A DNA stretch of 34,149 bases from Candidatus Zixiibacteriota bacterium. Its GTDB lineage: Bacteria; Zixibacteria; MSB-5A5; WJJR01; JAJRUJ01. A model generated the notes under the pieces. The model worked only from the letters and a program-made list of their open reading frames with translations, had not been told where the DNA came from and did no database searches. The position numbers were made by a program, and so were the translations under genes. Location of the stretch: the NCBI GenBank assembly GCA_024277855.1, contig JAJRUJ010000095.1, positions 1 through 34,149 on the forward strand, given 5' to 3'. Numbering within the stretch: position 1 is the first letter of the stretch; every line of letters starts with the position of its first letter. Of this stretch, positions 4,448 to 26,993 are shown one piece after another.

Positions 4448-6043
4448 GTGGAAATTCGTCAATTCAATAAAAGAAATCTAAGCAGCAGTCCCGGCTGGTC
4501 GGGGCTGGTTGCCGTGGTCATTGTGTTGATCTGGGTGGCCATGTCGGTGGCCGCAGGCCCAACTTTTGTCGCTGCGTTTTTTGTTAAGGGTAAAGTCGGC
4601 CTGAAGTGGAGGAAGATTGAAGGGGTCGAATCATATTCGATCTATCGGAAGGCGCAAGGCGGGGAATTCGAAAAAATCAGTTCGACCGGCGATGATCATT
4701 ATTTCGATACTGATCTCGTTGCCGGGACGGTTTACATCTACCGGCTGGGCGTCGCCAGCGCTGATGGCCTGGAAGAATTTTCGGCGGAGAAGTCGGTGAC
4801 AATTCCGGGCGTGGAAGCCGGAGATTTCCAGCCGCCCATCTGGGTTGGCTTACGGGTCGACCAGGATCGGATCTACCTGAACTGGGACCCCGTCCCTTCG
4901 GCGATCGCCTATAACATCATGCGCTCAGCCACGCCGGGTGGAGAGTATGAAACAATCGGCAATGCGCAGTCCTCGAAGTATGCCGACAAGACCGGCCTGG
5001 AAAAAGGCCGGACATATTACTATGTGCTTACCGCCCTTAACGCAGACTTTGAGGAAACTAAATTCTCCGAAGAGCGAAGCATCAAGTACGGCATCAGTTT
5101 GGCCGAGCAGGAAAAGTTGGAGGCGGAGCAAACGAAGATCGTATTGGAAGATGTAAAACTCACCGAACTTTTCGATATCACGACTGCCGGCAACCTCGGT
5201 GCAATGAACCAACCGGCCGATGTGTTCGTCAACTCCGTCGGCAGGATTTATATCACCGACGCTCTGAATGCCAAGGTTCACTGCTTTGCTCCGGACGGTA
5301 AGTATCTTTTCTCGTTTGGCGAGAGGATGGATAAAGGCGATATCGACAATCCGCCGCCGGGAACATTTCTGATCCCCTTCACCTTGTTTATCGACAAGCA
5401 GGACCAGGTTTTCGTCACCGATATCGACGGTCATGACATCCAGGTTTTTACCGCCGACGGCAAATTTATCAAACGTATCCGAGTCCAAACCGGCGATAAC
5501 CAGGCCACTCTGCGGCCGAACGGCATTCATGTCCTCGATGACGGGCGGATGGTGATCACCGATACCGGCAACCACCGGTTCCTGATTATCGATCAAAACG
5601 GCCGGATCCTGCTTAGCGTGGGGGAAAGAGGCAGTAAGCCAGGTCAATTCGCATTCCCCGACGAACTGACGGTTACTGATGATAATATCATCTGTATCGT
5701 AGATGTCATCAATTGCCGGATCCAAGAATTCGACCTGGACGGCAAATTCATCCGCACTTTCGGCAGTGTGGGGCAATCTGCCGGGACTTTTGCCCGGCCG
5801 AAGGCAATCACAATTGACGAGAGGGGACGGATCTGGGTCTCTGACGGCATGTCCAGTGTCATCCAGTGTTTTACGGTGGACGGCAAGGTCAAATCGGCTC
5901 TTGGAACGATGAACGACGAATCGGTCAAATTCGTTACGCCCCGCGGTATTTTCTTTAAAGACGGACGATTCTACGTGGTAAACCGCGTCCCCAACCGGGT
6001 GGTGGTTTATCAGGTGGAGTGGAGTGATTCCGATGCTGAATAA
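4448..6043 (+). CDS. Membrane-anchored FnIII-FnIII-NHL beta-propeller protein
   Basis: This is a 531-aa protein with a GTG start and a weak upstream GGAG. Residues ~18-39 form one hydrophobic segment, a signal anchor or uncleaved signal. Two fibronectin type III domains follow (~46-120 and ~128-215): both have the 'V.L.W....YxIxRs/k' core and the 'G..Y.Y.l.a' strand. An acidic/basic linker (~216-240) leads into an NHL six-bladed propeller (~245-525) with repeated blades such as 'VFVTDIDGHDIQVF', 'MVITDTGNHRFLII' and 'IWVSDGMSSVIQCF'. NHL propellers bind proteins or carbohydrates and have no redox group of their own. It is the first gene of the cluster and is followed 52 bp later by a nonaheme cytochrome, so an assembly or scaffolding role for exported cytochromes is likely. 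Confidence 0.88.
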   Translation: MEIRQFNKRNLSSSPGWSGLVAVVIVLIWVAMSVAAGPTFVAAFFVKGKVGLKWRKIEGVESYSIYRKAQGGEFEKISSTGDDHYFDTDLVAGTVYIYRLGVASADGLEEFSAEKSVTIPGVEAGDFQPPIWVGLRVDQDRIYLNWDPVPSAIAYNIMRSATPGGEYETIGNAQSSKYADKTGLEKGRTYYYVLTALNADFEETKFSEERSIKYGISLAEQEKLEAEQTKIVLEDVKLTELFDITTAGNLGAMNQPADVFVNSVGRIYITDALNAKVHCFAPDGKYLFSFGERMDKGDIDNPPPGTFLIPFTLFIDKQDQVFVTDIDGHDIQVFTADGKFIKRIRVQTGDNQATLRPNGIHVLDDGRMVITDTGNHRFLIIDQNGRILLSVGERGSKPGQFAFPDELTVTDDNIICIVDVINCRIQEFDLDGKFIRTFGSVGQSAGTFARPKAITIDERGRIWVSDGMSSVIQCFTVDGKVKSALGTMNDESVKFVTPRGIFFKDGRFYVVNRVPNRVVVYQVEWSDSDAE

Positions 6044-6082
6044 AAAACGAGAAAAATACAGAAGACCAGAATTTCCAACGTC

Positions 6083-6089
6083 AAGGAGG
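6083..6089 (+). promoter_or_regulatory. Strong Shine-Dalgarno that fixes the start of the nonaheme cytochrome
   Basis: AAGGAGG lies 6 nt before the ATG at 6096 and selects that start over the in-frame ATG at 6024 inside the previous gene. It is the best ribosome site in the cluster, which suggests this subunit is made in large amounts. Confidence 0.75.
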
Positions 6090-6095
6090 CTTTCT

Positions 6096-7244
6096 ATGAA
6101 AAAACTTGCCATCGTTTTGACCGGTATATGCGTCTTGGCGCTGCCGGTGGCGACGTTTGGCGGGGTAGCCGGTTCAGACCATGACCTGACTGGTTCGGGA
6201 GAAAAGGTTTGTGAGGCCTGCCATATCCCTCACAACGCCTTGGGTGACAAGCTCTGGGCCCGCACGCCGAGTGGCACTTTCTCGGGTGTGCAGGACCTTT
6301 GCTACACTTGTCACGATGGTGGTGTGACCTCAGTAGGCGTGACCACAGCATTTGACGCCGCCAAAGAGCAGCATGCAATAGTAGGAGCCGACTGTAGCGG
6401 CGACGGAGCCTGCCATGATGTGCACAACCAGAACCCGAATGGCTCAGGTCGTTTTGTGGTGGAGACCGAAACGAACAACAGCTTTTGCGAAACCTGCCAC
6501 GATGCAACACAGTTTGCCGGTGCGGAAGGCCTCGGTGATCACACTGCGGGGTTGACGCACTTCACCAATGGTGGGACATTTACCTGTAATCAATGTCACA
6601 CCGTCCACGGGGCAACCGCCCAGACAACCAACCCGCCGGGCTTGACTAATCCGATTCTGTTGGCTGATAATCAACCCGGAAGTTATTATGGCGCCTTCTG
6701 TATCTCGTGCCATAATGGCACGGCGCCCACGGAAGCGGTGGCCGGTTCTGGTGGTCAGGCGGCCACCGATGTTTGGGATTATGCCCAGTCGGTCGCCGAC
6801 GGTACCGAATGGAAACATCCGACTACCTCAACCACCGGTGGTACTCCGGTCGGCGGCTGTAACAAGTGTCATGATGTCCATGATCCGGCCGCCTCTCCGG
6901 CCCCGAAATATCTGCTATTAGCGGATAATACGGAATCGGCCTATTGCCTGTCCTGCCATTCGGCAGCAGGGGCTCCGGGCATCGGCGCCAACACCCATTT
7001 CACCGGTGTGCCGACCGATGTGAATATGAACAGTGGCCTTAACCCGGCACTGCCCTGGGCCAACCAGATTGACGAGGATGGAACAGTCGGTGCCGATTGG
7101 GCAAGCGCCACGGCCAACATGATGGTTTGTGAAACCTGCCATTCAGTGCACAAGCAGGGCGACCAAACTGTTGATGGTGGCTACCTGTTGAGAGACGGTA
7201 ACACTAACAACCAGATATGCCAGGCGTGTCATACCGCCAACTAA
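6096..7244 (+). CDS. Secreted nonaheme cytochrome with an extra CX5CH site; OmcS/OmcE-like filament candidate
   Basis: This is a 382-aa protein. Residues 1 to ~21 form a clear signal peptide (KKLAIVLTGICVLALPVATFGG). Nine CXXCH motifs are present, from 'CEACHIPHNALGD' to a final 'CQACH' four residues from the C-terminus. A tenth site reads C-SGDGA-CH (C100-C106-H107), a CX5CH spacing. The CxxCHxxHN-LG opening and the heme at the extreme C-terminus resemble the layout of the Geobacter filament cytochrome OmcS. Between hemes the chain is Gly/Thr/Asn-rich and poor in charge, like surface polymers. The strong ribosome site and a hairpin directly after the gene suggest higher expression than its neighbours. 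Filament formation is inference; a non-polymeric extracellular electron carrier is the alternative. Confidence 0.9.
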   Translation: MKKLAIVLTGICVLALPVATFGGVAGSDHDLTGSGEKVCEACHIPHNALGDKLWARTPSGTFSGVQDLCYTCHDGGVTSVGVTTAFDAAKEQHAIVGADCSGDGACHDVHNQNPNGSGRFVVETETNNSFCETCHDATQFAGAEGLGDHTAGLTHFTNGGTFTCNQCHTVHGATAQTTNPPGLTNPILLADNQPGSYYGAFCISCHNGTAPTEAVAGSGGQAATDVWDYAQSVADGTEWKHPTTSTTGGTPVGGCNKCHDVHDPAASPAPKYLLLADNTESAYCLSCHSAAGAPGIGANTHFTGVPTDVNMNSGLNPALPWANQIDEDGTVGADWASATANMMVCETCHSVHKQGDQTVDGGYLLRDGNTNNQICQACHTAN

Positions 7245-7278
7245 GGTATCTCTTTGCAGTTGACGAAATTCGTCCACG

Positions 7279-7323: not shown

Positions 7324-8412
7324 ATGAAAACTATAACAATATTTGTCGTGTATTTTATTATGGCCAATCTTGATGCCGGAGCAAGCACGTTTTTGGAAGT
7401 TCTCACTCCGCCCGAATATACCAGTACAAAATATGACCGCCTGTACTTAGTCGGCAAAACCGATGCGCCGAAGGTGGAAATTTCCCTCAACGGCACAGCA
7501 TATCGGGTACTAAACGTCCGCGATTCAGTATTTCATACTATGCTTGCCTTCGGTTACGGGCTTAATGAAATTGTTATCCGTACGATTACGGCAGACAGCG
7601 CCGCCACCCCGGCAGTCATCGATACCGTGGAGATCCTCAGCGGACCGAAGATTGGGAAAAAGTACAGCCGGATATTTGCCCCCCTTGTCTTTCACAGTGA
7701 GCATCCGCGCCGGGAATGTCTGGCCTGTCATCCGATCGCGACGGCGGAGGAAATATCCCCCGGTACCGCGGCCGCGTGTTACGAGTGCCATCGGGAGATT
7801 GAGCGGCATTTCCGCACGCATATTCCCAATGATCAGCGGGCGTGTTCGGTCTGTCACCGGCTGCGGGATGACCTGACCGCGGTGAGTACCGGCGGTTACG
7901 CCGGGAAAAATCCTTGCTATTCATGTCATCAGGACAAGATCGGTGCATATGCGCAGGATTATATCCATGGCCCGGTTGCGGGTGGAACGTGCACCATTTG
8001 CCACGATCCCCATGGTTCAGAATTTGAATTCAGTCTGGTGAATCCCGTCGCGGTTCTCTGTCCTTCCTGCCACACAATGGACAATTACCGGGAGTTACCA
8101 ACGCAGCATCGGCCGTTCAGTGAGGGCAAATGTACCGACTGCCACGATCCCCATTCCACCGATAACAAGTGGGTCCTGATTAAGAATTCGCAGGAGTTGT
8201 GTACGAACTGCCATCAAAAGATAGGCTTGATGGAGAACCACCGGCATCCGTATAATGTAACGCCGAAACGTCGGCTCGTTGCGCCGTTGGAATTGAGTGT
8301 GAACGGACAATTAGAGTGTCTCTCCTGTCACGAGGCGCATGCGGGCAGCTCAAAATACCTTCTGCGATCCGAGGAGGAGAATGCCTGTGCGGGTTGCCAC
8401 CCGGGTAGATAA
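7324..8412 (+). CDS. Secreted decaheme cytochrome with an N-terminal Ig-like domain
   Basis: This is a 362-aa protein. Residues 1-20 are a signal peptide. Residues ~22-120 form a beta-sandwich without hemes ('GKTDAPKVEISLNG', 'GLNEIVIRTI'), like the Ig-like/FlgD-type domains seen on secreted proteins. Residues ~130-362 carry ten CXXCH motifs, several of the doubled form ('CTICHDPHG', 'CTDCHDPHS'), ending with 'CAGCHPGR' at the C-terminus. The Ig-like module may be the docking part and the heme part the conductive part. No good ribosome site is seen before the ATG, so translation may depend on the upstream transcript. The gene is followed 3 bp later by an NHL lipoprotein. A decaheme electron carrier of the periplasm or cell surface is well supported; its partner is not known. 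Confidence 0.93.
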   Translation: MKTITIFVVYFIMANLDAGASTFLEVLTPPEYTSTKYDRLYLVGKTDAPKVEISLNGTAYRVLNVRDSVFHTMLAFGYGLNEIVIRTITADSAATPAVIDTVEILSGPKIGKKYSRIFAPLVFHSEHPRRECLACHPIATAEEISPGTAAACYECHREIERHFRTHIPNDQRACSVCHRLRDDLTAVSTGGYAGKNPCYSCHQDKIGAYAQDYIHGPVAGGTCTICHDPHGSEFEFSLVNPVAVLCPSCHTMDNYRELPTQHRPFSEGKCTDCHDPHSTDNKWVLIKNSQELCTNCHQKIGLMENHRHPYNVTPKRRLVAPLELSVNGQLECLSCHEAHAGSSKYLLRSEEENACAGCHPGR

Positions 8413-8415: not shown

Positions 8416-9450
8416 ATGAAATATTGCCGGTTGACATATATTGTCGTTCTTATCGGGCTATGTGGTATTATTGCCGGGTGCGCCCATCACCGGCCGGTAC
8501 AGTCATTGGGCTGGCCGCCCCCGCCGGAAAAACCACAAATTGTCTACCAGCAGAGTATCTATGGCAGCTATAATTTGAAACGCAGTATGTTCGGCCGCGT
8601 AAAAGATTTCCTCCTCGGCAAGTCTCCCGATCTGTCCATCAGCAAGCCATACGGTATCGCCTATGACGGCAAAGCCAGGTTATATATCGCCGATACCGGC
8701 AAAAAAGGCATCATGGTCATGGATTTTTCTGACGGCTCGGTTCAGTTCTTCAATTCCCTCGGAGCGTATGGTCGGCTTGTCGAGCCGGTGAATGTCATTC
8801 TGGACGGGAAAGGAAATGTTTACGTCGCCGACACCCGGTTGTCCCGAATCGCCGTTTTCGATCGCTCCGGGATATTTTCCCATTTCATCGGCGATGCGGG
8901 GGAACTGGCCAGCCCGGTCGGCCTGGCCTACTGGAAAAACCCGAAGCAAACCGGAACCGATCGATTGTATGTGGTTGACGCCAAGTTGCACACGGTGAAA
9001 ATTTTCTCACCGGCGGGCGAGAAACTGGGCTCATTTGGCCGGCGCGGTGATCAGCGGGGAGAGTTCTATCATCCTCTGGGTATCGGCGTGAATTCCGGAG
9101 ATACCGTCTACGTGGTGGATGCTTTTCACTTCGCGGTGCAGGCCTTTAACGCCGACGGAGACTTTCTTTTCAGTTTTGGACCGACGCCGACCGGGATCGG
9201 TTCAATGGCCCGTCCGCGAGCGATTGCCATCGATTCGGACAACCATGTCTATGTGACCGACGCTTTGAACAATAACGTGCAGATGTATGATAACCGCGGG
9301 CAACTGCTGGTTACCTTCGGTGTGACCGGTTTTGCCCCGGGACAATTCCGGCTTCCAGCTGGTATTTGTATCACCGACGATGACGCGATCTATGTCGCCG
9401 ACTCGATTAATCGGAGAATTCAGGAGTTCAAGTATCTCGCCGTCCGGTGA
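8416..9450 (+). CDS. NHL beta-propeller lipoprotein (first copy of a duplicated pair)
   Basis: This is a 344-aa protein. The signal peptide ends in the lipobox I-A-G-C with Cys22, so it is a lipoprotein. A conserved segment 'WPPPPEKPQIVY' followed by 'MFGRVKDFLLGK' precedes a six-bladed NHL propeller from residue ~75 to the end; blades include 'LYIADTGKKGIMVM', 'VYVADTRLSRIAVF' and 'IYVADSINRRIQEF'. The same N-terminal pattern (WPPxP...FGxxKxxLxGK) appears in the propeller at 12264, so the two are paralogues. Each is directly followed by a tetraheme cytochrome. The probable role is an outer-membrane-tethered scaffold or assembly factor for that cytochrome; no enzymatic residues are evident. 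Confidence 0.9.
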   Translation: MKYCRLTYIVVLIGLCGIIAGCAHHRPVQSLGWPPPPEKPQIVYQQSIYGSYNLKRSMFGRVKDFLLGKSPDLSISKPYGIAYDGKARLYIADTGKKGIMVMDFSDGSVQFFNSLGAYGRLVEPVNVILDGKGNVYVADTRLSRIAVFDRSGIFSHFIGDAGELASPVGLAYWKNPKQTGTDRLYVVDAKLHTVKIFSPAGEKLGSFGRRGDQRGEFYHPLGIGVNSGDTVYVVDAFHFAVQAFNADGDFLFSFGPTPTGIGSMARPRAIAIDSDNHVYVTDALNNNVQMYDNRGQLLVTFGVTGFAPGQFRLPAGICITDDDAIYVADSINRRIQEFKYLAVR

Positions 9451-9466: not shown

Positions 9467-10135
9467 ATGATAGCGAAATCAAGATATTTGTTGATCCTGA
9501 TCCTGCTGGTCATTGTGCCGTCGGCGATGGCGGGAGTCAAAGAGACCAAGCATAATTTCACTTCACCGACGTACAGCCCCAATGCTTATTTCTGGGGGAC
9601 CCGACAGGTTTGCGTATTTTGCCATGCGGTGCACAACGCCGACCAGACCTACGGCCCGCTGTGGAACCATGAGGTGAACGGCGCGCAGTCCTACACCATG
9701 TACAGTTCGCAAACAATGGATATGAACCAGTCTGCCTCTCCGCACAATGGTTCACTCATCTGCCTGTCGTGCCATGATGGGACCATTGCGGTCAATTCCC
9801 TGAGCAATTTACCCGGCCCGGAAGCCGCCGGGAATTATGGGACCCCTGGCGGACCGGGACTTGACGTTGACGGAAAACTCACCAGCAGCTCGACTGCTTT
9901 TGTCGGCACTGATCTTTCCGACGACCATCCCGTGGGAATAACTTACGATGCGGGCAAAGACAACGACTTCGTGCCCAAGGCGGGAAATCCGACCGCATAC
10001 CCGGACAAACTGTTATATCAGGGTTTGTATGTCGAGTGTACCTCATGCCACAACCCGCATGATAACACGTACTCGGATTTCCTTGTCGAGTCGAATGACA
10101 ATTCGGCGCTGTGCACGAGATGTCATACCAAATAA
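9467..10135 (+). CDS. Secreted tetraheme cytochrome (OmcE-like family candidate), first copy
   Basis: This is a 222-aa protein. GAAGGA six nt before the ATG fixes the start at 9467; the longer in-frame reading from 9332 lies inside the propeller gene. The signal peptide is residues 1 to ~22 (LLILILLVIVPSAMAG). Four hemes: 'CVFCHAVHN', 'CLSCHDGTIAV', 'CTSCHNPHD' and a last 'CTRCHTK' at the very C-terminus. 'GPLWNHE' and 'DLSDDHPVGI' lie between them, and the His in DHPV is a likely distal ligand. The same landmarks occur in the protein at 13250. Small tetraheme proteins with a C-terminal heme include filament formers such as OmcE, so polymerisation is a reasonable hypothesis. The barrel gene begins 7 bp downstream, which points to export through or docking on that barrel. 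Confidence 0.92.
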   Translation: MIAKSRYLLILILLVIVPSAMAGVKETKHNFTSPTYSPNAYFWGTRQVCVFCHAVHNADQTYGPLWNHEVNGAQSYTMYSSQTMDMNQSASPHNGSLICLSCHDGTIAVNSLSNLPGPEAAGNYGTPGGPGLDVDGKLTSSSTAFVGTDLSDDHPVGITYDAGKDNDFVPKAGNPTAYPDKLLYQGLYVECTSCHNPHDNTYSDFLVESNDNSALCTRCHTK

Positions 10136-10142: not shown

Positions 10143-12257
10143 ATGTTGGATAAGTATCGCAAATATCTTTGGTTCTGGCTGATCCTGCCGGGTATTTTCT
10201 GGGCGGCGGCGGCCGGTGCACAGACGACGCTCACCGGCGAATTGGGCCTGGACTATGAAAATTATCAGTTCAACAATTCTCTCGCGGATACCGTGAGAGA
10301 CTATTCGGTAAGCCGCAGTCTGTCTAATCATTCCCTGGATTTTCGGCTCACCGGGCCGCTGATTTCCGAGCAACTGGCAAACTACGCCTCCCGGGCGATG
10401 ATTCTGGGAACATATTATCGACTCAACGGCAGTTCCGGTACGGCGGATAAGTATTTTCGGCCGCAGATTCCCACTTACGGCGGGACCCTGACCCTGTTTC
10501 CCGCCCGCCCGTACCCCCTTCGGCTCGAATTCAGCAAAACCCGTGTTCATTCGATTCGATATGAGGCAAACAACCGGTCGAAAATCGATCTGGAAAGTCC
10601 GGAGTTGGCTATCGTCCGCCGCTACCAGATCGATTTGAATTCCCGGAGCGGGGTTTGGAAAGTTGCTTTTGCCGACAATATCGATTTGACAACAGAAGTA
10701 AAACGGGATCGGACGGAAATCCATCGCGGGTATGATCTCGGCGAGGACCGGGATATCTGGGTCAATTTCAGCACGCTCCGCCCGGACAGTCTCAAAGACG
10801 TTGACACGATTGACGTGATCAACTCGATTCCCGGCGACACCGTCCTGCTTTATGTCGATTTGAATTTTGTTGATTCGCTGGCTCCGGCCGGCTCGGTGCG
10901 TTTCCCCCTCGATTCGGGGTTCCACCAGGTGGAATTCTACCCGCTCAGGAATAATCATTTCCGGGCGCTGGTTGCCGTTCGCGGCGACATGCGCTGGGAG
11001 ATTCTGCCTTCCCCGCCCACGACGCCGAATGACCTCGAACAAAGGAAGAATGCGGCCACCGGCATTTTACGTGTCGGCGGGGATGGACGCTTCCGCAGTG
11101 AAACATATTTTGAATACAGCGACACCGATGAACAATTGCAGGATATGATCATCTATTTAAGCAATTTTTCCAACACCGCCAGCTATGAGTTAGGGCGCGA
11201 CGGCCGGTTGCGAACGCTGACCAGTTATAGTCAGAATCAAACGAGTATTTCCGATATTTCTTCGCAATTGAATAAAGCGTTTATGCAACAGACCACCGTT
11301 GATTGGGGGAAAAAGCGCGGGTTGACCTCGACAATTTCACACAGCTATACAAAAATGTCTACACGGACCGATGTCGATGATTTTACCAGTAACACCCACA
11401 TTCTCAGCACGCGAAACGTCTATCCGATAAATAAGTTTAATTACACGCTGGATTTGAAAAACTCTGCGTCGTTGCTTACCGACAGTCGCGCTTACACGAA
11501 TAATCAATATAGCTCCGAATTGAATAATACGGTTGAATTCCACTTGTCGAAAACCAAATGGCGACCCCGGAACCTGATCAAATACAGTTATAATCTGCAA
11601 AAAAACCCGGACAAATCGGCGCGGGAATTGGAGACCGGGTTTTCGCTTACCGGCGATATTCCCCGGGTGCTCGGACTGGGTGATTTGAAGCTGCGTGGAG
11701 ACTATAAGCGGCGAAAACGGACTTACGATGACGGATCCGATATCCGAAACCGGTATTTTGCCGATATCGGGCTGGTCAAGGACTTCGGCGGCAGGTTGAA
11801 ATTCAAGTTCGACATCAATCAGGAGAAAGAAACTTATGGCGGCACCAGCACGCTGGCCGGAGAGAATGCAAACCAGAACAATCCCGCGCGTCAACCGCTG
11901 GTCAAAGACTCGTATAAAATCGACGTTCAGGCGACACCGTGGGATGAATTGAATTTCAGCGGGAATATTCTGGTGATCCGTCAGGGATCGACCAAAATCA
12001 CTCGTTTCGGCGTTTCGCTGTTGACTACGGTGCCGAAATTGAATATCCCCCTTCGTTCATTTTTGCTGGCCGAAAACCGTGATCTGGTGGGCCTGCCGAC
12101 CCAGTCTCAGCTTTCGATGGAGACCCGGGCCAGCTATCGATTTCGTCAGGTCACGATCACTTTGAGTCACCATTATGTTAAAGAGACACTCTTAACCGAG
12201 AAATACCATTTTCAGGAAGTCCGGATAAAAATCGCCCGGCACTTTGCCATACTGTAG
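10143..12257 (+). CDS. Large outer-membrane beta-barrel (porin-like conduit candidate)
   Basis: This is a 704-aa protein. The start at 10143 gives a signal peptide (residues 1 to ~27, ending AAAAGAQ); the longer frame reading back into the tetraheme gene has no signal peptide. The mature chain is rich in alternating hydrophobic/polar strands with many Tyr, Phe, Arg and Asp residues ('LTGELGLDYENYQF', 'FKFDINQEKETY', 'ETRASYRFRQVTITLSHHYV') and few helices, typical of a barrel of about 20 or more strands. There are no cysteines for heme attachment. It sits between two NHL/tetraheme pairs. By analogy with porin-cytochrome complexes it may house a cytochrome or export the small cytochromes; family membership cannot be assigned without a profile search. 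Confidence 0.8.
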   Translation: MLDKYRKYLWFWLILPGIFWAAAAGAQTTLTGELGLDYENYQFNNSLADTVRDYSVSRSLSNHSLDFRLTGPLISEQLANYASRAMILGTYYRLNGSSGTADKYFRPQIPTYGGTLTLFPARPYPLRLEFSKTRVHSIRYEANNRSKIDLESPELAIVRRYQIDLNSRSGVWKVAFADNIDLTTEVKRDRTEIHRGYDLGEDRDIWVNFSTLRPDSLKDVDTIDVINSIPGDTVLLYVDLNFVDSLAPAGSVRFPLDSGFHQVEFYPLRNNHFRALVAVRGDMRWEILPSPPTTPNDLEQRKNAATGILRVGGDGRFRSETYFEYSDTDEQLQDMIIYLSNFSNTASYELGRDGRLRTLTSYSQNQTSISDISSQLNKAFMQQTTVDWGKKRGLTSTISHSYTKMSTRTDVDDFTSNTHILSTRNVYPINKFNYTLDLKNSASLLTDSRAYTNNQYSSELNNTVEFHLSKTKWRPRNLIKYSYNLQKNPDKSARELETGFSLTGDIPRVLGLGDLKLRGDYKRRKRTYDDGSDIRNRYFADIGLVKDFGGRLKFKFDINQEKETYGGTSTLAGENANQNNPARQPLVKDSYKIDVQATPWDELNFSGNILVIRQGSTKITRFGVSLLTTVPKLNIPLRSFLLAENRDLVGLPTQSQLSMETRASYRFRQVTITLSHHYVKETLLTEKYHFQEVRIKIARHFAIL

Positions 12258-20200: not shown

Positions 20201-22306
20201 GTCACCAATTGCGGCGGGACGAACTCGGCTTGCCATAATATCGCCGATCATCAAACACAAAACTGTCTGGTTTGCCATGCGCCGCATCAAACAACAAATA
20301 TCTACCTGGTACGGGATACGATCCAGACGCCTAACTCCGGCCTCCGGGAAGTGATCTTCAAGACGCTGGGTATCGGTGATCCATATAACGATCCTGATCC
20401 GACTGTCGGCGATCCGTCTTCGGGTGTCATGGCCGATTTTTCCAATGGCGTCTATACCGGGGTCTGTGAAGTTTGCCACACGTCGACCAGCCATCACCGT
20501 AATGATGGTTCCGAGCCGCTCCCCGACCACAATGATGCGACGGTTTGTACCAATTGTCATCCGCATGAGGGTGGGTTTGCCGCCGGAGAATCGGGCGGCG
20601 GCATGAGCTGTACCTGCCATCAGACGATCTTCGTGGGGATGGACAGTACGTCCACGAAGTACCGTCACATCCTGGCCAATGACGACGCCGACTATTCCCC
20701 CGGGGCCAGTGGCATGGCCCATATCAAGAACTGTCTGACCTGCCATGTCGACCACGATATTTTCCGTCCCGACCTCAACACCGGAGTGGGGCAACGCGGG
20801 AAGAACTTGCGGGTGGATTATGTGACGGATCCCGTTCAGGGTGATAACGCCGTTCTGTCCAATACTGATTACTCGTCCGCCGGTTTGGGCGGGCTGTGTC
20901 TTTCGTGCCATTCCGGCCCCGGTTGCACCGGCTGCCACAGCTCTCATGCGAGTGCATCCGTCGCTTCACTGCAGGAGGCCTCGCAGTCAACGTATGATCA
21001 TGTCTTTATCCCTAAAGATGACTACGATGCGGTGACCTCGACGCACAATTACAGCGTAGCGTCGACATTTGGCGAGGACGGTTCCACTTTTAACGCCAAT
21101 TGCGTGAAGTGCCACAATGACAACACGACGAAATCCTATCAGAGCTCTACTTACATGTTTAGTGTGCACGGCTCGGATTTCAACAATCTGTTAAATCCCC
21201 TCGGCGCTGTGGCGCCCACCGACCCGCTGGAGGAAAAACTCTGTTTCCGCTGCCATTCGACAACGTCTAACCCCAATGCCGGATCGAATCTGGACTACTA
21301 TGGGGTCAAAAGCATGACCAACCCGGAAGCGCTTGATCTCGAAGCCGTTTTTGGCCGCACATATACGCATCCGACAGCCGTCTATTCCGGGCGTCATCGG
21401 TTAGGGGAAGACGCGGCTGCCCTGGCTGACGGCAACCGTCATGCCGAATGCGGGGATTGTCACAACCCGCATGCCGCCCAGCAGGGAACGCATGATGGGT
21501 CGTCGAATCTCATTTCCAATGCACTGAAAGGCACCTGGGGAGTAGAACCGACCTCGTGGCCCGCAGCGCCGACCCCCACGGATAATGGGAACTTATTTGC
21601 CGCACCGTCAGGCTACGATCAGGTGAATCCCGCGCAGAAGGAATATCAGATCTGCCTGAAATGCCATTCGAACTATACCACCCTTCCCTCCGGCAAGCGA
21701 AATCTGGCCGAGGAAATAAATCCGAACTACACGTCAACCCACGGTATCGTGCAAGCGGGAACGAATGCTTATTGTAATACCAACACGATGAACGAACCAT
21801 GGGGCTCATCGGGGATTGCCTGGTGTTCCGATTGTCATCGCTCGTCGAATACCGCCGACCCGGAAGGCCCGCACGGTTCCAACCAGGAACACTTGTTGGT
21901 CGCGACGGTGGTTTCCAATAGTAGTGTCGGGACGCCTCTTTGTTATGTCTGTCACAAGGAATCAGAATACTGGAGTGGTAACACTTATTATAGCCGCTAT
22001 CCGGATCATCCGGCGGACCGGAGCGCCCACCGGCGCTCGCAGGGCTGTTTCGCCTGCCATATGTGGGAGTATTCATCCACCAGCGGCTTGGGTGTTTCAA
22101 CAACCAACTGGTCGGGCGGCACTCCACCGGCCGGGATTCTCGTCCACGGCATGAACAAGAAATGGGTATACAACGAACAGAACGGCTCGAGCGGCACCGG
22201 CCAGAATGTCGACGCATTTACCAGCGGGTATCTTGAAAATATGGATTACACGAATCGCCGCTGCTGGTCGGCAACCTGTAGAGGACATTCCAATCAAGGT
22301 TACTAA
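17255..22306 (+). CDS. Giant surface cytochrome: jelly-roll domain, six Ig-like repeats, 13-heme C-terminal half
   Basis: This is a 1683-aa protein with GGAAGA just before the ATG. Residues 1-29 are a signal peptide. Residues ~30-195 look like a jelly-roll/carbohydrate-binding-type domain ('NGSFDAGISTGW', then 'GNFDDVVLNV'). Six Ig-like repeats of ~128 aa begin near residues 198, 327, 455, 583, 712 and 842; each opens NNxPxV/AxA, has 'VTFKxRxPxN' and ends 'YDLYFEVTDGxD...DELEI', and is Asp-rich, suggesting bound calcium. Residues ~985-1683 hold 13 CXXCH motifs plus three odd sites (CX6CH, CXCH, CX4C-RGH). The layout implies a stalk that carries a multiheme head away from the membrane. The domain at the N-terminus may bind polysaccharide or mineral; this is unproven. 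Confidence 0.9.
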   Translation: MITRGFIRNLIIIAVGLLSVTFAAVGAWSADVLSNGSFDAGISTGWTDQSSGQGTAAWDEVDYGIASGSLRGRTATGQNQGFILDFAQTVGPINSTDIVHLSFWWYKWSQTVPAGRHTMILRIIKPAGDSTDIWTETTIPAANSSLTGNYNSDVSAFFDQTGNYTIRLIGDLQSGTDGNAYAQGNFDDVVLNVQGGVNNAPMVTAGATQVSVSPTNRLGANTTVISTDFGDSDQPGVSAFTVTFKIREPNNTTELTLVNNQPNGGGGLTITDNGGGSYTASYTYNPDDAQTTGLYDLYFEVTDGTDSAIDNYIDNADELEINEVVANNAPTVTPGATHVSVSPVNRFGLNTTVVLADFSDTDQPGINAFKVTLKIREPNNTTELTLVNNLPHGSGGLSIIDNGGGSYTASYTYNPDDAQTTGLYDLYFEVTDGIDSVVDGYADNPDELEINEVFTNNPPQVGAGATRTSKSQTNRKGTDSTVLSATFTDLDNPGIGAFAVTFKVREPDNSTEIVLVNNQPDGAAGVTIVDNGGSYTAKYTYNPDDAQTLGFYDLYFEVTDGTDNAIDGYADNLDELEIIDIPTNNPPVLAASATTVFPSSVDRFGAATTELSAVFTDGDSPGIGAFAVTFRLRTPYNGGLVIVVDALGNGQGGLTITDNGGGSYTARINWDPPDDQVLGYYDLSCLVSDGTDTADDGFDNNPNELLLTNGGENAPPVVSADNTFASPAAIERIGAHPTIISATFQDVDLPGVGAFTVTFKLRQPDNSAEIILADNLGDGVGGVSISDGGGGIYTASISWDPPDAQTLGVYDLYFQVTDGVDTSYDAYADNLDELEVYDAISNNAPTVVAGATAVLPSSITRLGSEYTMIQTLFSDVDVPGRGAFTITIKVRDQSAVEYTIVNAAGHKQQGLRVEHVSGSDYEASVLWDPPVGQVTGTYDLYFYVEDNKAAAATDGYANNADELTITATAIAGDGNLLRRTNDVTNCGGTNSACHNIADHQTQNCLVCHAPHQTTNIYLVRDTIQTPNSGLREVIFKTLGIGDPYNDPDPTVGDPSSGVMADFSNGVYTGVCEVCHTSTSHHRNDGSEPLPDHNDATVCTNCHPHEGGFAAGESGGGMSCTCHQTIFVGMDSTSTKYRHILANDDADYSPGASGMAHIKNCLTCHVDHDIFRPDLNTGVGQRGKNLRVDYVTDPVQGDNAVLSNTDYSSAGLGGLCLSCHSGPGCTGCHSSHASASVASLQEASQSTYDHVFIPKDDYDAVTSTHNYSVASTFGEDGSTFNANCVKCHNDNTTKSYQSSTYMFSVHGSDFNNLLNPLGAVAPTDPLEEKLCFRCHSTTSNPNAGSNLDYYGVKSMTNPEALDLEAVFGRTYTHPTAVYSGRHRLGEDAAALADGNRHAECGDCHNPHAAQQGTHDGSSNLISNALKGTWGVEPTSWPAAPTPTDNGNLFAAPSGYDQVNPAQKEYQICLKCHSNYTTLPSGKRNLAEEINPNYTSTHGIVQAGTNAYCNTNTMNEPWGSSGIAWCSDCHRSSNTADPEGPHGSNQEHLLVATVVSNSSVGTPLCYVCHKESEYWSGNTYYSRYPDHPADRSAHRRSQGCFACHMWEYSSTSGLGVSTTNWSGGTPPAGILVHGMNKKWVYNEQNGSSGTGQNVDAFTSGYLENMDYTNRRCWSATCRGHSNQGY
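17848..20160 (+). repeat. Six tandem Ig-like domain repeats within the giant cytochrome gene
   Basis: The units are ~384-390 bp each. Repeats 1 (from ~17848) and 2 (from ~18232) are nearly identical over long stretches at the DNA level, for example around 18070-18110 and 18460-18500, while repeats 4-6 have diverged. This indicates a recent duplication at the 5' side and a repeat number that may vary between strains. Confidence 0.8.
20210..20236 (+). other. Non-standard CX6CH motif
   Basis: The codons give Cys986, six residues (GGTNSA), Cys993 and His994, immediately before the first canonical heme of the giant cytochrome. Whether heme is attached is unknown. The ending S-A-C-H-N is like the G-A-C-H-D of the CX5CH site in the nonaheme protein. 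Confidence 0.5.
20609..20620 (+). other. Non-standard CXCH motif
   Basis: The codons read Cys-Thr-Cys-His at residues ~1119-1122, between canonical sites. With one residue between cysteines, normal two-thioether attachment is unlikely; a single-cysteine heme or a non-heme role is possible. Confidence 0.45.
22262..22288 (+). other. Degenerate CX4C-RGH motif at the C-terminus of the giant cytochrome
   Basis: The codons read C-WSAT-C-R-G-H. It resembles the CxxxxCH motif of the Geobacter CxxxxCH/CxxCH domain family, but the residue after the second Cys is Arg, with His two further on. Confidence 0.45.
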
Positions 22307-22325
22307 TATTTTTGCCTCTCAGCGG

Positions 22326-23369
22326 ATGGCGTTTTTCTTGATCGCCATCCTTCTTGTCCTGGTTGTATTATCCGCCTTGGTCCCCCAGAAAGATGTGGCG
22401 CAGGACCGGATCCTCGACTGGGAGGAGTTTCTGGGAGACGGTTATGTCGTCATTGAAAAAACGGGCCTGGATCAAATCTATTCTTCACCCCTGTTTTTTT
22501 TGGTCCTTGGTCTGTTGGCGATTAATCTGGCCGCCGGAAACCTCAAACGAATAAAACTCGTCTTCCGGGCCGAAAAACCGCTTGTCAAGGCCCGGCATCT
22601 CGGCATGATTATCTTCCATCTGGCGCTTTTGTTGATTATCGCCGGCGTGATTCTCAACTATTTATTTAGATTTCACGGCGTGTTTGGCCTGACCGAGGGG
22701 CAAACCGCCCGGGATACCGAACAGAAGTATTTTCGTATCTTCGCCGGGCCGTTGTACCCTGGTCAATTTGGGCGTTTTGCGATCGAGTTGGCGGGGGTTG
22801 ATCCGGTATACGAAACTGCCGGGGCCCGCACCGCGGCCGCCGAAATCACTCTCCGGCCGGCGATTCAGGAGACGCCGATAACCGATACAATCCTGATTAA
22901 CCACCCGCTGGCCTGGCGCGGCTTGGAGTTTCATTTCGGCTCGAAGACCGGCCTCTCTCCGGAAGTGCTGGTCACCGACACCAGCGGGCAACAAATATTC
23001 CGTAGTTTTGTCCGCCTCTCCACTCGACGGGTCGAGGACCGCACGTTGTCTTCCGATTTCGTCATTATTCCATCGAAGAATTTGAAGATAAATGTAGAGG
23101 TCCAGTCTGCAGATGAAGCGATCGATTCGGCCGTTTTTGTTGTTGCCGTGGAACAGGCACACGTTATCGTATATCAAGGGACATTGACGCCGGTGGACAC
23201 TGTTGCATTCGGCGGTCTGCGATTGACGATTCCGCGACTGCGCCGGTGGTGTTATGTCGATGTCGTCGAAAATCAATTCCTTAACCTGGTTTTTATCGGG
23301 TTTTGGACAGCGCTGGCCGGGCTGGTCATCGGCTTTGTTCCCCGGTTGATCAGTCGGAGAAAACAATAA
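22326..23369 (+). CDS. resB: ResB/Ccs1-like System II cytochrome c maturation protein
   Basis: This is 347 aa from the ATG at 22326. The frame is open back to an ATG at 22206, but that start would overlap the giant cytochrome by 101 bp. The residues 'NIFASQR' just before 22326 look like the conserved start of ResB, so a non-ATG start near 22287-22293 (behind GAGGA) is also possible. Features are TM1 followed by 'ALVPQ', TM2 ('LFFLVLGLLAINLAAG'), TM3 ('IIFHLALLLIIAGVIL', with a conserved-type His), a large periplasmic domain (~130-310) and a last TM ('FIGFWTALAGLVIGFVP') before an Arg/Lys tail. With CcsA it forms the synthase that attaches heme to CXXCH. The next gene begins directly after its stop. 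Confidence 0.88.
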   Translation: MAFFLIAILLVLVVLSALVPQKDVAQDRILDWEEFLGDGYVVIEKTGLDQIYSSPLFFLVLGLLAINLAAGNLKRIKLVFRAEKPLVKARHLGMIIFHLALLLIIAGVILNYLFRFHGVFGLTEGQTARDTEQKYFRIFAGPLYPGQFGRFAIELAGVDPVYETAGARTAAAEITLRPAIQETPITDTILINHPLAWRGLEFHFGSKTGLSPEVLVTDTSGQQIFRSFVRLSTRRVEDRTLSSDFVIIPSKNLKINVEVQSADEAIDSAVFVVAVEQAHVIVYQGTLTPVDTVAFGGLRLTIPRLRRWCYVDVVENQFLNLVFIGFWTALAGLVIGFVPRLISRRKQ

Positions 23370-24191
23370 ATGAACACACTCGAATCTTTGATGTATTGGG
23401 CCACCACTTTGCTTTTGGCCGGCGGCTTTTTCCTGGCGCTGGTCTCGATTGTTTTTGGTAAATCCCGGCCCTTCAGTATTGCCCGTCTCCTGGTGTTTCT
23501 GGCCTTTATCTGTCTTACTGTTTTCGGGATTACCCGCTGGGTGCGTACCGCTCATCCGCCGTTCGTGACATTGTTTGAATCGATGACCGTCTCGGTCTGG
23601 TTCGTCCTGTTGATGTTTCATGGCCTCCGCGCCCGTCTGCCGCAGACGTCGATCCTGCTTTTGCCGGTCTCGGCGATCACTTTTCTGCTGATGGGCTGGT
23701 CATCGTCCCTGCCGCAGGAAGCGTCGCCGTTGAGCGTAGCGCTGACCAACACCTGGTTGTTTATCCATGCCTCTTTTGCCACCGGTGGTGCGGCGGCTTT
23801 CCTGATCGGTGCATCGTTTTCAGTTGTCTATCTTATCGGGCGCGCCCGGCTGGAATCCCTGCAAAAGACATTTGCCGTGCTGCCCGACTACAACTTGTTG
23901 CCGAAGTCGATTCTCAATTTTCTGATTTTCGGCCTGATCCTCTGGGGAGTGATGATTGTTTCCGGTTCGATCTGGGCGCATGTGGCCTGGGGGCGATACT
24001 GGGCCTGGGACCCGATCGAGCTCTGGTCATTGATCAGTTGGTTACTCTATGGATTGTTATTACATACCCGGTTGACTTTTCGTCTGCCCCAAAGACTTTT
24101 CTGTTGGCTGACCATTCTCGCGGCGTTGACGGTGACATTCTCGCTATGGGGTGTTCAATATGTCTATGAAACTATTCACTCATATGGCTGA
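23370..24191 (+). CDS. ccsA: CcsA/ResC-like cytochrome c heme lyase subunit
   Basis: This is a 273-aa protein with ~8 predicted membrane helices. The diagnostic tryptophan-rich WWD motif is present as 'WGRYWAWDPIELWSL' starting at W207. Candidate heme-ligating histidines are in 'RTAHPPF', 'LFIHASFA' and 'LLHTRLTF', at the positions usual for CcsA. The length is normal for a bacterial CcsA. Together with ResB it exports heme and ligates it to apocytochromes on the periplasmic side. Its ATG directly follows the ResB stop, and its end overlaps the next gene, so both are part of the same operon. A dedicated synthase inside a cytochrome cluster suggests high heme-attachment demand or relaxed motif specificity, given the odd motifs nearby. 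Confidence 0.93.
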   Translation: MNTLESLMYWATTLLLAGGFFLALVSIVFGKSRPFSIARLLVFLAFICLTVFGITRWVRTAHPPFVTLFESMTVSVWFVLLMFHGLRARLPQTSILLLPVSAITFLLMGWSSSLPQEASPLSVALTNTWLFIHASFATGGAAAFLIGASFSVVYLIGRARLESLQKTFAVLPDYNLLPKSILNFLIFGLILWGVMIVSGSIWAHVAWGRYWAWDPIELWSLISWLLYGLLLHTRLTFRLPQRLFCWLTILAALTVTFSLWGVQYVYETIHSYG

Positions 24192-25200
24192 TCTTCGGCC
24201 TTTCGGTTCCCTGACGAGAATCCTGTGTCTGCTTTTGGTCGTCTGTGCCGCCGTCCATTGCGACAACAGGGAAAATACGATAATCGACCGGTATTCAACC
24301 GTGCCGAAATTGGAGCGGTCAGTACCGATCATCGATGGCGGGGATACCCTGCGACCGGCTCGGCTGCAGATGGTCGATGATACGCTCTATGTCAGTTATG
24401 TCGGCCAAACACGGTTGGACCTCTTTACGCCGGAATTGGAGAAAATCCGTTCGATTGTGCTGGACAAACCCGAGTCGGTCCATCCTACTTCGTTCGTCGT
24501 GGCCGATTCCGAGATCATCGTCACCGACCACGCTAAACGTATCGTCGCCGCCTACGATTTCGACGGCGGTTTCTTAACCTCGTTCGGCCTGCTCCCCGAT
24601 GAGGCCACCCGCCTCTCGCCTTTGGTTGTTACGTATTATGGCGGGGTGGCCTATGTCGCCGATATTGCCTTGCGGAAGGTGCTGGCAATATCGATGACCG
24701 ACGCCCCCGAAATTACCGAAAGGGGAGAATTGATCCTGACCATCCCGCCGGACTCCGGGCAGACTGTCGGCTTTCCGTCGGCTATCTGCGTGACACCGGA
24801 CGGCCGGTTGCTGGTCGGCGATGCGGAGGATGGCCTGGTGCGCGTCTTTACCTGTGACGGCCGGCCGGTATACAATTTTGATTCGGTTTTCACCGACCGC
24901 CCTCTGGCTCCCCAGGGCTTTGCCATCGATGATATCATCGATCCGGAGCTCCAGGATACATCCTCATTTGATCCCAGTGGAATTCGGTATTTGGGACGTA
25001 TACATGTCGTTGACGGAAACAACGCGGCGGTGCATCTGTTTAGTCCTCTCGGTCGCTTCATCGCGTCGTATCCTTCCGGCGGAGAATTAGTCCGGCCGTC
25101 GGGTATCGCCATCGATCGGGCGAGGAAAAAAATCTATATTGCCGACCCGGTGGCTCGGCGGATTTTTATGTATCGATACCAGGACGGCGGAGATGCTTAA
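24160..25200 (+). CDS. Secreted NHL-type beta-propeller protein
   Basis: This is 346 aa from the ATG at 24160, which has GGGG ~7 nt upstream; GTG 24151, ATG 24166 and ATG 24184 are alternatives. It overlaps the ccsA end by 32 bp. An N-terminal hydrophobic stretch (ILCLLLVVCAAVHC) is a signal peptide; the Cys after AVH could be lipidated but the box is not canonical. A six-bladed propeller follows ('EIIVTDHAKRIVAAY', 'VAYVADIALRKVLAI', 'RLLVGDAEDGLVRVF', 'KIYIADPVARRIFMY'). It is the fifth propeller of the cluster and the most diverged. Its place between ccsA and a small membrane protein may mean it works at the cytoplasmic-membrane side of the pathway. Its exact role is unknown. Confidence 0.85.
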   Translation: MSMKLFTHMADLRPFGSLTRILCLLLVVCAAVHCDNRENTIIDRYSTVPKLERSVPIIDGGDTLRPARLQMVDDTLYVSYVGQTRLDLFTPELEKIRSIVLDKPESVHPTSFVVADSEIIVTDHAKRIVAAYDFDGGFLTSFGLLPDEATRLSPLVVTYYGGVAYVADIALRKVLAISMTDAPEITERGELILTIPPDSGQTVGFPSAICVTPDGRLLVGDAEDGLVRVFTCDGRPVYNFDSVFTDRPLAPQGFAIDDIIDPELQDTSSFDPSGIRYLGRIHVVDGNNAAVHLFSPLGRFIASYPSGGELVRPSGIAIDRARKKIYIADPVARRIFMYRYQDGGDA

Positions 25201-25552
25201 AATTTTGCTGATGGTCAGTAACTACTTTCATGATCTATCGGTGGCGTTGCTGGCTTCGAACATTCTCGTTGTTTATTTCCTCGGACGTTTTCTCGATCAT
25301 CACCCGATTGCCGACCGGATCCTGCCGTATGTATTTGCCCGCCTGAAATATATTACCTACGGTGCGCTGGCCTATATCATCCTGGGTGGGGCGGTACGGG
25401 CGTATTTTTTCATGGATTTCGAATGGAACCCGGCGGTCGGCCGTGGACAGGTAACCGCGCTCATTATCAAACATATCTTGCTGGTGACCATCACCATTTT
25501 CGGCGTCATCGTGCACCTGAAATATCAGAGGAAATATGGCTACAAAGGATAA
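25193..25552 (+). CDS. Small integral membrane protein with conserved-looking histidines
   Basis: This is 119 aa, starting at ATG 25193 inside the stop of the propeller gene, behind GGCGGAG. Three or four membrane helices are visible (~residues 12-30, ~48-68 and ~85-108). Histidines near helix ends ('NYFHDLSVALL', 'IIKHILLV') could bind b-type heme. The general look (NYFHDLSVALLASN) recalls CopD/DUF2269-type membrane proteins, but I cannot assign the family firmly. It overlaps the radical SAM gene by 17 bp, so it is tightly coupled on both sides. It could be the membrane electron entry point for the cytochromes or a partner of ResB/CcsA; both are inference. Confidence 0.75.
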   Translation: MLKILLMVSNYFHDLSVALLASNILVVYFLGRFLDHHPIADRILPYVFARLKYITYGALAYIILGGAVRAYFFMDFEWNPAVGRGQVTALIIKHILLVTITIFGVIVHLKYQRKYGYKG

Positions 25553-26993
25553 GACCATTCTATTTGTGACGCCGCCTTACCATTGCGGCGTAGTCGAAGT
25601 GGCCGGGAGTTGGCCCCCGCTCGGACTGTTGTATCTCGGCGCCCAGGCCCGGCAAGCCGGTTGGCGGGCCGAAGTATACGATGCGATGACATTGCGCCAT
25701 GATTTCAAAGAAATCACATCCCGGCTGCAGAAAACGGAATTTGATGTTTTCGCGACAACGGCGATCACGCCGACATTTCCCGACGCCGCCGAACTGTGCC
25801 GCATTGCCAAGACGGTCAATCCCCGTTGCACGACAATTATCGGCGGCGTCCATCCTACTTTTTCCGCCGAGGAAATCTTCGCCGAACCGGGCGGGTCTAT
25901 CGACTACATCATTGCCGGTGAGGGAGAGCCCGCCCTGTATCGGTTCCTGATCAATTTCGATGATCTCGAGAAACGGCGACAATCACCAAATCTGATCTAC
26001 CGGGATGACGGTCGGCTTAAAACAAATTTGACTTTACCACTTAAGAAGGAATTAGATGAATTGCCGGTCGCCTGGGATCTGCTCGATTGGCGAAATTACA
26101 GTTATTATGTCATCCCCGGTTCCCGGCTGGGCGCGGTTTCGACTTCCCGTGGTTGCAGTCACAGTTGTACTTTCTGCTCTCAACAGCGTTTTTGGAACAA
26201 GATGTGGCGCGGCCGCACCCCCCGGGCCGTGGTTGCGGAAATACGGCAGGTGCATGACACTTACGGCGTCAATGTTTTTCTTCTCACCGATGAGTACCCG
26301 ACCTACGACCGGGATCGTTGGGAGGAAATCCTCGACCGGCTGCTGACTGAGAAGCTGGACATCTATATTCTCATGGAAACCCGGGTAGAAGATATTGTCC
26401 GTGATGAGGACATCTTGGCGAAATATCGACGGGCGGGGATCGTTCATGTCTATGTCGGCGCCGAGGCGACCGACCAGGGAACGCTTGACCGGATCAACAA
26501 GGAAATAACGGTAGCCGATTCCCGCCGCGCCATCGAACTGATCGCCGAGTATAACATGATTTCCGAGACGTCCTTTGTGCTGGGCTTTCCGGAAGAAACG
26601 GAGGACTCCATTGAAGCCACTTTCCGATTGGCCTGTGAGTTTAATCCCGATTTTGCTCATTTCCTGGCGATTACTCCGTGGCCCTATGCCGAGTTTTACC
26701 AGGAAGTGCGGGAGCATATCGAAGTATTCGATTATCGCCGCTACAATTTGATCGATCCAATCATCAAACCAAAGCAGATGACCCGCCGGCAGGTCGATCA
26801 TGCGATCATCGATTGCTATCGCCGGTTCTATATGCCCCGCATGTCCGAGTACCGCAAAGTCGAAGATACGTTCCGGCGCGACTACCTGCTTCGCTCGATG
26901 AAGTTAATCATGAAATCGTCATTTCTCATCAGCAAGTTTGCCCGCCTGGGGTTGAATCCGAAAAAACTGATGCCCGATATGTTTAAAGCGTAG
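25536..26993 (+). CDS. B12-binding-domain radical SAM enzyme
   Basis: This is a 485-aa protein. AGAGGA 3 nt before the ATG fixes the start. Residues ~8-140 form a cobalamin-binding-type Rossmann domain ('FVTPPYHCGVVEVAGSWPPLGLLYL', split here into 'FVTPPYHCGV' and 'SWPPLGLLYL', then 'TIIGGVHPTF' and 'YIIAGEGEPAL'). The radical SAM core has CX3CX2C at C207, C211 and C214 ('RGCSHSCTFCSQ'), followed by 'VFLLTDEYPT', 'HVYVGAEATDQGTL' and 'SFVLGFPEETED'. Relatives include BchE- and HpnJ-like enzymes that methylate or rearrange lipids, tetrapyrroles and other unreactive carbons. It is the last gene of the cytochrome cluster and overlaps the previous gene by 17 bp. Its substrate is unknown; heme, lipid or a cytochrome residue are candidates. 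Confidence 0.92.
   Translation: MATKDKTILFVTPPYHCGVVEVAGSWPPLGLLYLGAQARQAGWRAEVYDAMTLRHDFKEITSRLQKTEFDVFATTAITPTFPDAAELCRIAKTVNPRCTTIIGGVHPTFSAEEIFAEPGGSIDYIIAGEGEPALYRFLINFDDLEKRRQSPNLIYRDDGRLKTNLTLPLKKELDELPVAWDLLDWRNYSYYVIPGSRLGAVSTSRGCSHSCTFCSQQRFWNKMWRGRTPRAVVAEIRQVHDTYGVNVFLLTDEYPTYDRDRWEEILDRLLTEKLDIYILMETRVEDIVRDEDILAKYRRAGIVHVYVGAEATDQGTLDRINKEITVADSRRAIELIAEYNMISETSFVLGFPEETEDSIEATFRLACEFNPDFAHFLAITPWPYAEFYQEVREHIEVFDYRRYNLIDPIIKPKQMTRRQVDHAIIDCYRRFYMPRMSEYRKVEDTFRRDYLLRSMKLIMKSSFLISKFARLGLNPKKLMPDMFKA

Follow-up and report, generated by a model that had tools for sequence, protein, structure and literature searches.

A contig from the uncultured Candidatus Zixiibacteriota raises the question of whether a 22.5-kb run of cytochrome, beta-propeller and cytochrome maturation genes represents a single pathway of extracellular electron transfer. 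The whole stretch analysed, referred to here as the window, is contig C85 of genome G000 (completeness estimate 100%) and is 34,149 nucleotides long. The run occupies positions 4448-26993 and comprises 17 open reading frames (ORFs), all on the plus strand, seven of which encode multiheme cytochromes. A sequence-only reading had interpreted the run as one operon and one pathway. Based on the gene order in relatives, we consider it fairly likely that the locus combines a core electron conduit with nanowires and an accessory module, the latter with a dedicated cytochrome c lyase and a radical SAM enzyme similar to BchE, the anaerobic chlorophyll cyclase.

Conservation of gene order and distribution of the two modules

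The class survey covered 133 genomes (G-numbers label genomes and f-numbers families). The best conserved core marker, the pentaheme cytochrome mhc5 (16532-17236; 64-74% identity in 10 genomes), is found in 13 of them, in families f1, f7, f8, f11 and f18; the match in G050 is short. The order kept is TrxTPR-unknown-mhc17-NHL1-mhc9-mhc10-NHL2-omcE1-barrel-NHL3-omcE2-mhc7-NHL4-mhc5. It is complete in the window, G055, G101, G092, G100 and G105, and G099 lacks a TrxTPR hit only. The core order is found in seven genomes of three families (f1, f8 and f18); contig-limited copies are additional, with partial order in G087, G063 and G070 as far as their contigs reach. Scattered members in relatives had been named in advance as the finding that would speak against the operon, and this objection fails because the core order recurs in other Zixibacterial families. 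Together with two OmcE-type cytochromes and an MtrA-like decaheme, the order upholds the view of the run as an extracellular electron-transfer operon.

The genes mhc13-ResB-CcsA-NHL5-CopD-like-BchE-like follow mhc5 on the same contig in the window, G055 and G105, and accessory genes are found across contig breaks in G063, G013, G110 and G087. In G100 the accessory module is on a separate contig from the core. In G070 it is split: CcsA-NHL5 follows mhc5, while mhc13-ResB-CopD-BchE is found on a different contig. G050 contains ResB-CcsA-NHL5-CopD-BchE without a cytochrome run. In G092, G099 and G101 the core is kept, and the BchE-like and ResB genes were not found. The accessory module is separable from the core and is usually led by the giant cytochrome, mhc13. 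Because it is separable, the reading as one pathway holds only in part: the core order is conserved, and the ResB-CcsA-propeller-CopD-BchE module lies elsewhere or is absent in some relatives. The locus consists of two functional modules, which probably form one transcription unit. The relatives that carry names and share the module are Candidatus Zixiibacteriota. The module of G050 (contig C1, about 3582000-3588500; L034 and L065) is preceded by several proteins that have type IX secretion-like tails and are not cytochromes.

Concerning co-occurrence in the class, BchE-like is found in 11 of the 133 genomes and ResB in 10, with nine in common (Fisher test, 2e-11), and BchE-like and mhc5 occur together in ten (9e-12); these counts are uncorrected for common descent and not independent of phylogeny, although they involve five families. 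Two BchE-like genomes were missed by the ResB search: G110 is ResB-positive by BLAST and the contig of G077 begins near NHL5.

Composition and borders of the unit

The cytochromes within 4448-26993 contain 9, 10, 4, 4, 7, 5 and 13 CXXCH motifs, in agreement with the 52 counted earlier; residue-shuffled versions of the seven have a mean of 0.2. The Pfam cut-offs are exceeded by five NHL propellers, ResB, CcsA (Cytochrom_C_asm) and the Radical_SAM and B12-binding domains, which bears out the five beta-propellers, the ResB/CcsA pair and the B12 radical SAM enzyme of the sequence-only reading. The close spacing described there is also seen: with the called starts, genes overlap or are at most 19 bp apart, the exception being mhc9-mhc10 (79 bp). 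The start of mhc9 is better placed at 6096, which gives an NHL1-mhc9 gap of 52 bp. The other revised starts are 9467 (omcE1), 10143 (barrel), 13893 (mhc7) and 25193 (small membrane protein), and ResB perhaps starts at 22326 rather than 22206.

The unit starts upstream of 4448, where its beginning had been placed before: the three genes at 229-3692 belong to the same conserved block, because they precede the run in the same order in relatives. An AT-rich spacer of 40% GC (3693-4447, plus strand) separates them from NHL1 and presumably contains the promoter of the main run; in six genomes this spacer has the same position, is 406-763 bp long and is without a conserved ORF. A terminator-like hairpin with a T run (27023-27045, plus strand), just beyond the last stop codon, marks the end of the unit. 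The consensus scans behind the starts and the hairpin are weak evidence.

The core genes

All genes described in this and the following two sections are on the plus strand. The block is opened by a protein with a signal peptide, a thioredoxin fold and TPR repeats (TrxTPR, 229-1392; Pfam AhpC-TSA and TPR), whose orthologue has the same place in G055, G101, G092, G100 and G105. On inspection of the sequence, its thioredoxin domain (FWATWSQRS) contains no CXXC; the protein opens a block with a cytochrome maturation context, yet it does not have the CXXC of ResA/CcsX. It is followed by an exported protein of unassigned family (1481-2302; no Pfam match, same place in six relatives) and by the 17-heme cytochrome mhc17 (2370-3692), which has 17 CXXCH motifs, a Paired_CXXCH_1 match (E 1e-61) and the same place in relatives.

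NHL propeller 1 (4448-6043; NHL E 3e-15) has an N-terminal anchor and fn3-like domains. The cytochrome mhc9 (6096-7244) has nine CXXCH motifs, and AAGGAGG lies ahead of its ATG. The proposed conduit cytochrome is the MtrA/DmsE-like decaheme mhc10 (7324-8412), which matches PDB 6r2q chain A with E 1.5e-11 over about 120 residues and counts as an MtrA/PioA-type decaheme; its match to TIGR03508 (E 2.5e-25) is under the cut-off. We take 6r2q to be MtrCAB and its chain A to be MtrA. The chain is labelled 'Cystathionine beta-synthase' in the searched file; its length and the match fit MtrA. NHL propeller 2 (8416-9450; NHL E 5e-22) is a lipoprotein with the lipobox IAGC.

The proposed nanowire subunits are the OmcE-type tetrahemes omcE1 (9467-10135) and omcE2 (13250-13903). 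OmcE itself (7TFS) is a tetraheme filament of Geobacter (PMC12954529). omcE1 matches 7tfs with E 5.6e-25 and 9yuq with E 1.5e-25 over its full length, and omcE2 matches the same entries with E 1.2e-19 (residues 4-153) and E 3.8e-14 (residues 13-215). Both align with the heme sites of OmcE and with its N-terminal TKH histidine, a likeness from which they are predicted to polymerise into a filament. The OmcE query against plasmids gave no match.

Between the two OmcE-type genes lies a 705-aa protein (10143-12257) of an unnamed sequence family, which eight genomes contain in the same position with 22-43% identity. We infer from its size, place and composition that it is probably an outer-membrane barrel. 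The barrel of the sequence-only reading is plausible only: the signal peptide and the length of about 700 aa fit it, and the strand signal is weak. Profile searches against Pfam and the PDB returned nothing, PF11854 (MtrB/PioB) had no hit in the window region, and hhalign against the true MtrB of the class gave a probability of 0.1%. The single-sequence AlphaFold model has a mean pLDDT of 32, and in a home-made count of amphipathic strands the z values of eight homologues ranged from about -0.1 to 2.8, which is too low to establish a barrel and similar to what non-barrels reach.

NHL propeller 3 (12264-13253; NHL E 3.5e-22) precedes omcE2. The next cytochrome, mhc7 (13893-14981), is MtrC-domain-like (PF22113 E 1.7e-12) and has seven CXXCH motifs; it probably has eight hemes rather than seven, because its C-terminal CX3CH site (CYLxCH) is invariant in 9/9 orthologues. 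Like mhc7, mhc9 and mhc13 exceed the cut-off of this looser profile, PF22113 (MtrC/F domain II-IV). The OmcA/MtrC family profile TIGR03507 gave just a 19.6-bit match in omcE2, and no cytochrome of the MtrC family was found in the run. NHL propeller 4 (15001-16521) has a C-terminal FlgD-Ig or type IX secretion-like sorting tail, with PF13860 above cut-off and PF18962 and PF13585 just under it; SprA of the type IX translocon is encoded on contig C88 of the same genome. The core ends with mhc5.

The giant cytochrome, the System II lyase and the CopD-like protein

The accessory module begins with the giant cytochrome mhc13 (17255-22306), which contains Ig/cadherin-like repeats, 13 CXXCH motifs and three conserved non-canonical motifs, namely a CX6CH, a CXCH and a C-terminal CX4CxxH. 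ResB/CcsB (22206-23369; PF05140 E 5e-23), the sole ResB found in the genome, is followed by the cytochrome c synthase CcsA/ResC (23370-24191; PF01578 E 1e-27) with the motif WGRYWAWDP. The pair has the traits of System II: ResB (PF05140), CcsA (PF01578) and the tryptophan-rich WWD motif. A ResA/CcsX partner with CXXC was not found in the block, the search being confined to this contig; the thioredoxin-fold protein at 229-1392 has no CXXC. Two further Cytochrom_C_asm genes are found in the genome with sizes that fit CcmF and CcmC of System I, so System II is an addition here. The PF01578 search of 16 genomes found a CcsA-type gene in 10/10 carriers of BchE-like and in 0/6 of the others; a CcmF-type System I gene is present in 14/16 and was not seen in G063 and G013.

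All module carriers whose sequence is readable have a particular subtype of mhc13 (CNTxTMxEPW, CxACHMW and, at the C-terminus, CW(n)CxxH). It was seen in 0/2 orthologues from module-less genomes, which end in an ordinary CX3CH. In Nitrospirota (L051 and L052), giant cytochromes close to BchE-like genes also terminate in C-Xn-C-x-x-H.

NHL propeller 5 (24151-25200; NHL E 1.4e-8) is followed by the small membrane protein of the sequence-only reading, which is indeed a 119-aa protein with three helices and is CopD-like (25193-25552). The alignment of 16 relatives contains an invariant HD, R and K(H). PF05425 is matched by 7/16 of the relatives (best E 2.4e-5) and not by the protein of the window, whose structure model has a pLDDT of 86, and a fold search with this model gave no match. 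An identity as HemJ is unsupported, as no PF03653 match was found in the genome.

The BchE-like radical SAM enzyme

The last gene of the run encodes a cobalamin-dependent radical SAM enzyme (25536-26993), with B12-binding and radical SAM domains and CX3CX2C. The sequence-only reading had the family right and missed the most unusual point, namely that by its sequence the enzyme is a sister of BchE. Its identity to phototroph BchE is 35-38% over about 94% of the length, and the BchE-like clade scores 368-435 bits with TIGR02026 vs 816-847 for phototroph BchE. In the tree (support 83/96, the bootstrap not fully settled and some branches long) it is grouped with enzymes of Krumholzibacteria, Nitrospirota, Geobacterales and Myxococcota, adjoining but outside phototroph BchE. 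The N-terminal motif P-x-[YF]-H-x-G-x-x-E-x-A-G-x-W is common to the BchE-like enzymes and BchE and is absent from the further B12 radical SAM enzymes in the sample. BchH, the Mg chelatase (TIGR02025), had no match in the genome, so Mg-protoporphyrin is not the expected substrate.

The link of BchE-like with lyase and CopD-like genes recurs in Nitrospirota, Geobacterales, Myxococcota and Krumholzibacteria. Isolates that carry the BchE-like gene include Geotalea toluenoxydans and Geomesophilobacter sediminis. Among 22 loci outside Zixibacteria, many of them on short contigs, CcsA is found in 10, ResB in 7, CopD-like in 8 and at least one of these in 15. The BchE-like protein of two Nitrospiraceae (L049 and L052, 9998-11944) is 648 aa long; its C-terminus is extended by a domain of about 150 aa that may be an SRPBCC ligand-binding domain, judging by its look. 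Some Geobacteraceae (L056, 11943; L058, 5724) contain a second BchE-like paralogue, which lacks the N-terminal motif and lies on a long separate branch.

Proposed function and alternative explanations

Concerning electron flow and lyase specificity, we infer the following. The core would be an electron conduit across the outer membrane, equipped with nanowires. Cytochromes of 17, 9 and 7 hemes, either soluble or anchored, would move electrons within the periplasm and on the surface; the MtrA-like decaheme would thread the barrel, and the two OmcE-type tetrahemes would polymerise outside the cell as heme wires. The NHL propellers, among them the lipoprotein NHL2 and NHL4 with its type IX secretion-like tail, would scaffold or anchor these wires. 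The accessory module would comprise the giant surface cytochrome, a second, dedicated ResB-CcsA synthase and the CopD-like and BchE-like proteins. ResB-CcsA would load heme on giant-cytochrome sites that System I does not serve. The least certain part is that the BchE-like enzyme might supply or modify porphyrin for ResB-CcsA, which we regard as tentative. Put as a new maturation system, with the same tentativeness, the BchE-type enzyme might oxidise or cyclise heme or a precursor, the CopD-like protein might assist and ResB-CcsA might attach the product; modified heme at particular sites of the giant cytochrome would then, possibly, tune redox potential.

Several points weigh against this scheme. 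The barrel is unproven and has no sequence relation to MtrB. Both CX6CH and CXCH are present in mhc13 orthologues from genomes without the module. The C-terminal CX4CxxH may not bind heme at all, because its His is not adjacent to the second Cys. The best-matching family of the BchE-like enzyme is BchE (TIGR02026), yet its 413.6 bits are below the cut-off of 481.35; methylation is the activity presumed for most cobalamin radical SAM enzymes (PMC13142503); and in Geobacterales and some Nitrospirota the BchE-like gene adjoins MacB/FtsX, ABC and FtrD-like genes without a cytochrome run. The phylogenetic dependence of the co-occurrence counts belongs here as well. In L043, L045, L053 and L054 the FtrD-like gene is PF10080, and some of these loci have a second B12 radical SAM enzyme of about 440 aa. 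CX6CH and CXCH as the sole reason for a dedicated lyase were rejected; they do not explain it, because orthologues without the module carry both.

If ResB-CcsA were dedicated to odd sites of the giant cytochrome, the BchE-like enzyme could be a co-regulated neighbour, methylating for example a lipid, quinone or peptide. System II synthases dedicated to odd motifs are known from Wolinella, namely NrfI (CXXCK) and CcsA1 (CX15CH) (PMC12285233), the lyase and the giant-cytochrome subtype co-vary, and the presumed methylase activity of most such enzymes also suits this explanation. The nearest characterised family, however, is a porphyrin cyclase with the N-terminal motif in common, other phyla also have the enzyme together with the lyase, and in the class it is never found without System II where contigs permit a look; we regard a mere neighbour as possible and somewhat doubtful. 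It is highly improbable that chance placed the BchE-like, ResB/CcsA and CopD-like genes next to the cytochrome run: they are missing in three core-keeping genomes and stand without a cytochrome run in G050, but at least six other Zixibacterial genomes have the same order with the giant cytochrome leading, the Fisher values are about 1e-11 and the association recurs in other phyla. It is also very unlikely that the enzyme fills a gap in ordinary heme synthesis, as the lack of a match to HemJ, the one gene of that pathway looked for, might suggest, given that the core cytochromes are kept in G092, G099 and G101 in the absence of BchE-like.

The same parts could also work in the oxidative direction, taking up electrons from Fe(II), metal or a syntrophic partner. 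The decahemes MtrA, MtoA and PioA are inseparable by direction from sequence, a locus with OmcE, MtoA and NHL proteins is found in an autotrophically growing, steel-corroding bacterium (PMC12016550), and Zixibacteria with mtrAB and a reductive tricarboxylic acid (TCA) cycle have been reported (PMC9769843). OmcE, on the other hand, is known from metal reducers, and the window itself decides neither direction; we regard electron uptake as possible and somewhat doubtful.

Should the conduit with its accessory module be correct, an uncultured phylum would possess a conserved, marker-rich operon with an MtrA-like conduit, OmcE-type wires, propeller scaffolds and a barrel of a new family. A BchE sister clade would be tied to cytochrome c synthesis in chlorophyll-less metal-reducing lineages, a sister of the chlorophyll fifth-ring enzyme would serve electrical wiring, and both the enzymatic remodelling of natural c hemes and the origin of BchE would be directly testable.

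Comparison with known systems

The two tetrahemes share with the OmcE nanowire of Geobacter sulfurreducens (7TFS) four CXXCH motifs, full-length or near full-length homology, the TKH and the distal DxxHP histidine; they differ in that two paralogues are present per operon in a 20-gene block, and their filament is a predicted one. As in MtrCAB, PioAB and MtoAB, an MtrA/DmsE-type decaheme stands beside a probable barrel of similar size. In contrast to those systems, the barrel here is outside PF11854, has no profile similarity to the MtrB of the class and is not accompanied by an MtrC-family match. OetABI/Pcc (PMC10553843) also unites a porin, periplasmic and surface cytochromes and a putative nanowire cytochrome in one cassette in the part of the text searched; the nanowire there is of OmcS/OmcX type, and propellers and a lyase are not described in that part. 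Porin-cytochrome operons and mtrAB have already been reported from Zixibacteria (PMC7005843, PMC9769843).

In Wolinella, NrfI and CcsA1 are likewise extra ResB/CcsA-type synthases encoded with an odd-Cys-motif cytochrome (PMC12285233), whereas here ResB and CcsA are separate, are accompanied by BchE-like and CopD-like genes and exist next to System I. BchE, the anaerobic Mg-protoporphyrin monomethyl ester cyclase, which has been purified (PMC13142503), has the same architecture, CX3CX2C and N-terminal motif as the enzyme of the window; the latter belongs to a separate clade, in a genome without BchH and in the genomic company of cytochrome maturation.

The claim that the full set is unknown elsewhere holds within the searchable literature, although part of the set has a precedent. 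One locus of Geoalkalibacter ferrihydriticus (Ga0056053_02426-02431) already contains an MtoA homologue, an OmcE homologue and two NHL proteins (PMC12016550). ResB/CcsA, a BchE-like enzyme and a giant cytochrome are unreported there, while five propellers and seven to eight cytochromes are present here. The searchable literature yielded no locus in which a BchE sister and a second synthase accompany five propellers and an unrelated barrel, and no prior report of BchE with Geobacter or cytochromes or of clusters of radical SAM and multiheme proteins.

Neighbouring genes

A PEGA-like exported protein is encoded at 27002-28000 on the minus strand, convergent with the end of the operon. It caps the locus in nearly all relatives, whether or not the accessory module is present, and in several of them (G055, G050 and L067) a 5-heme cytochrome is located between the end of the operon and the PEGA-like gene. 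Further downstream, 32444-33536 likely encodes an ECF sigma factor and anti-sigma pair (CHxxxCPHC-like).

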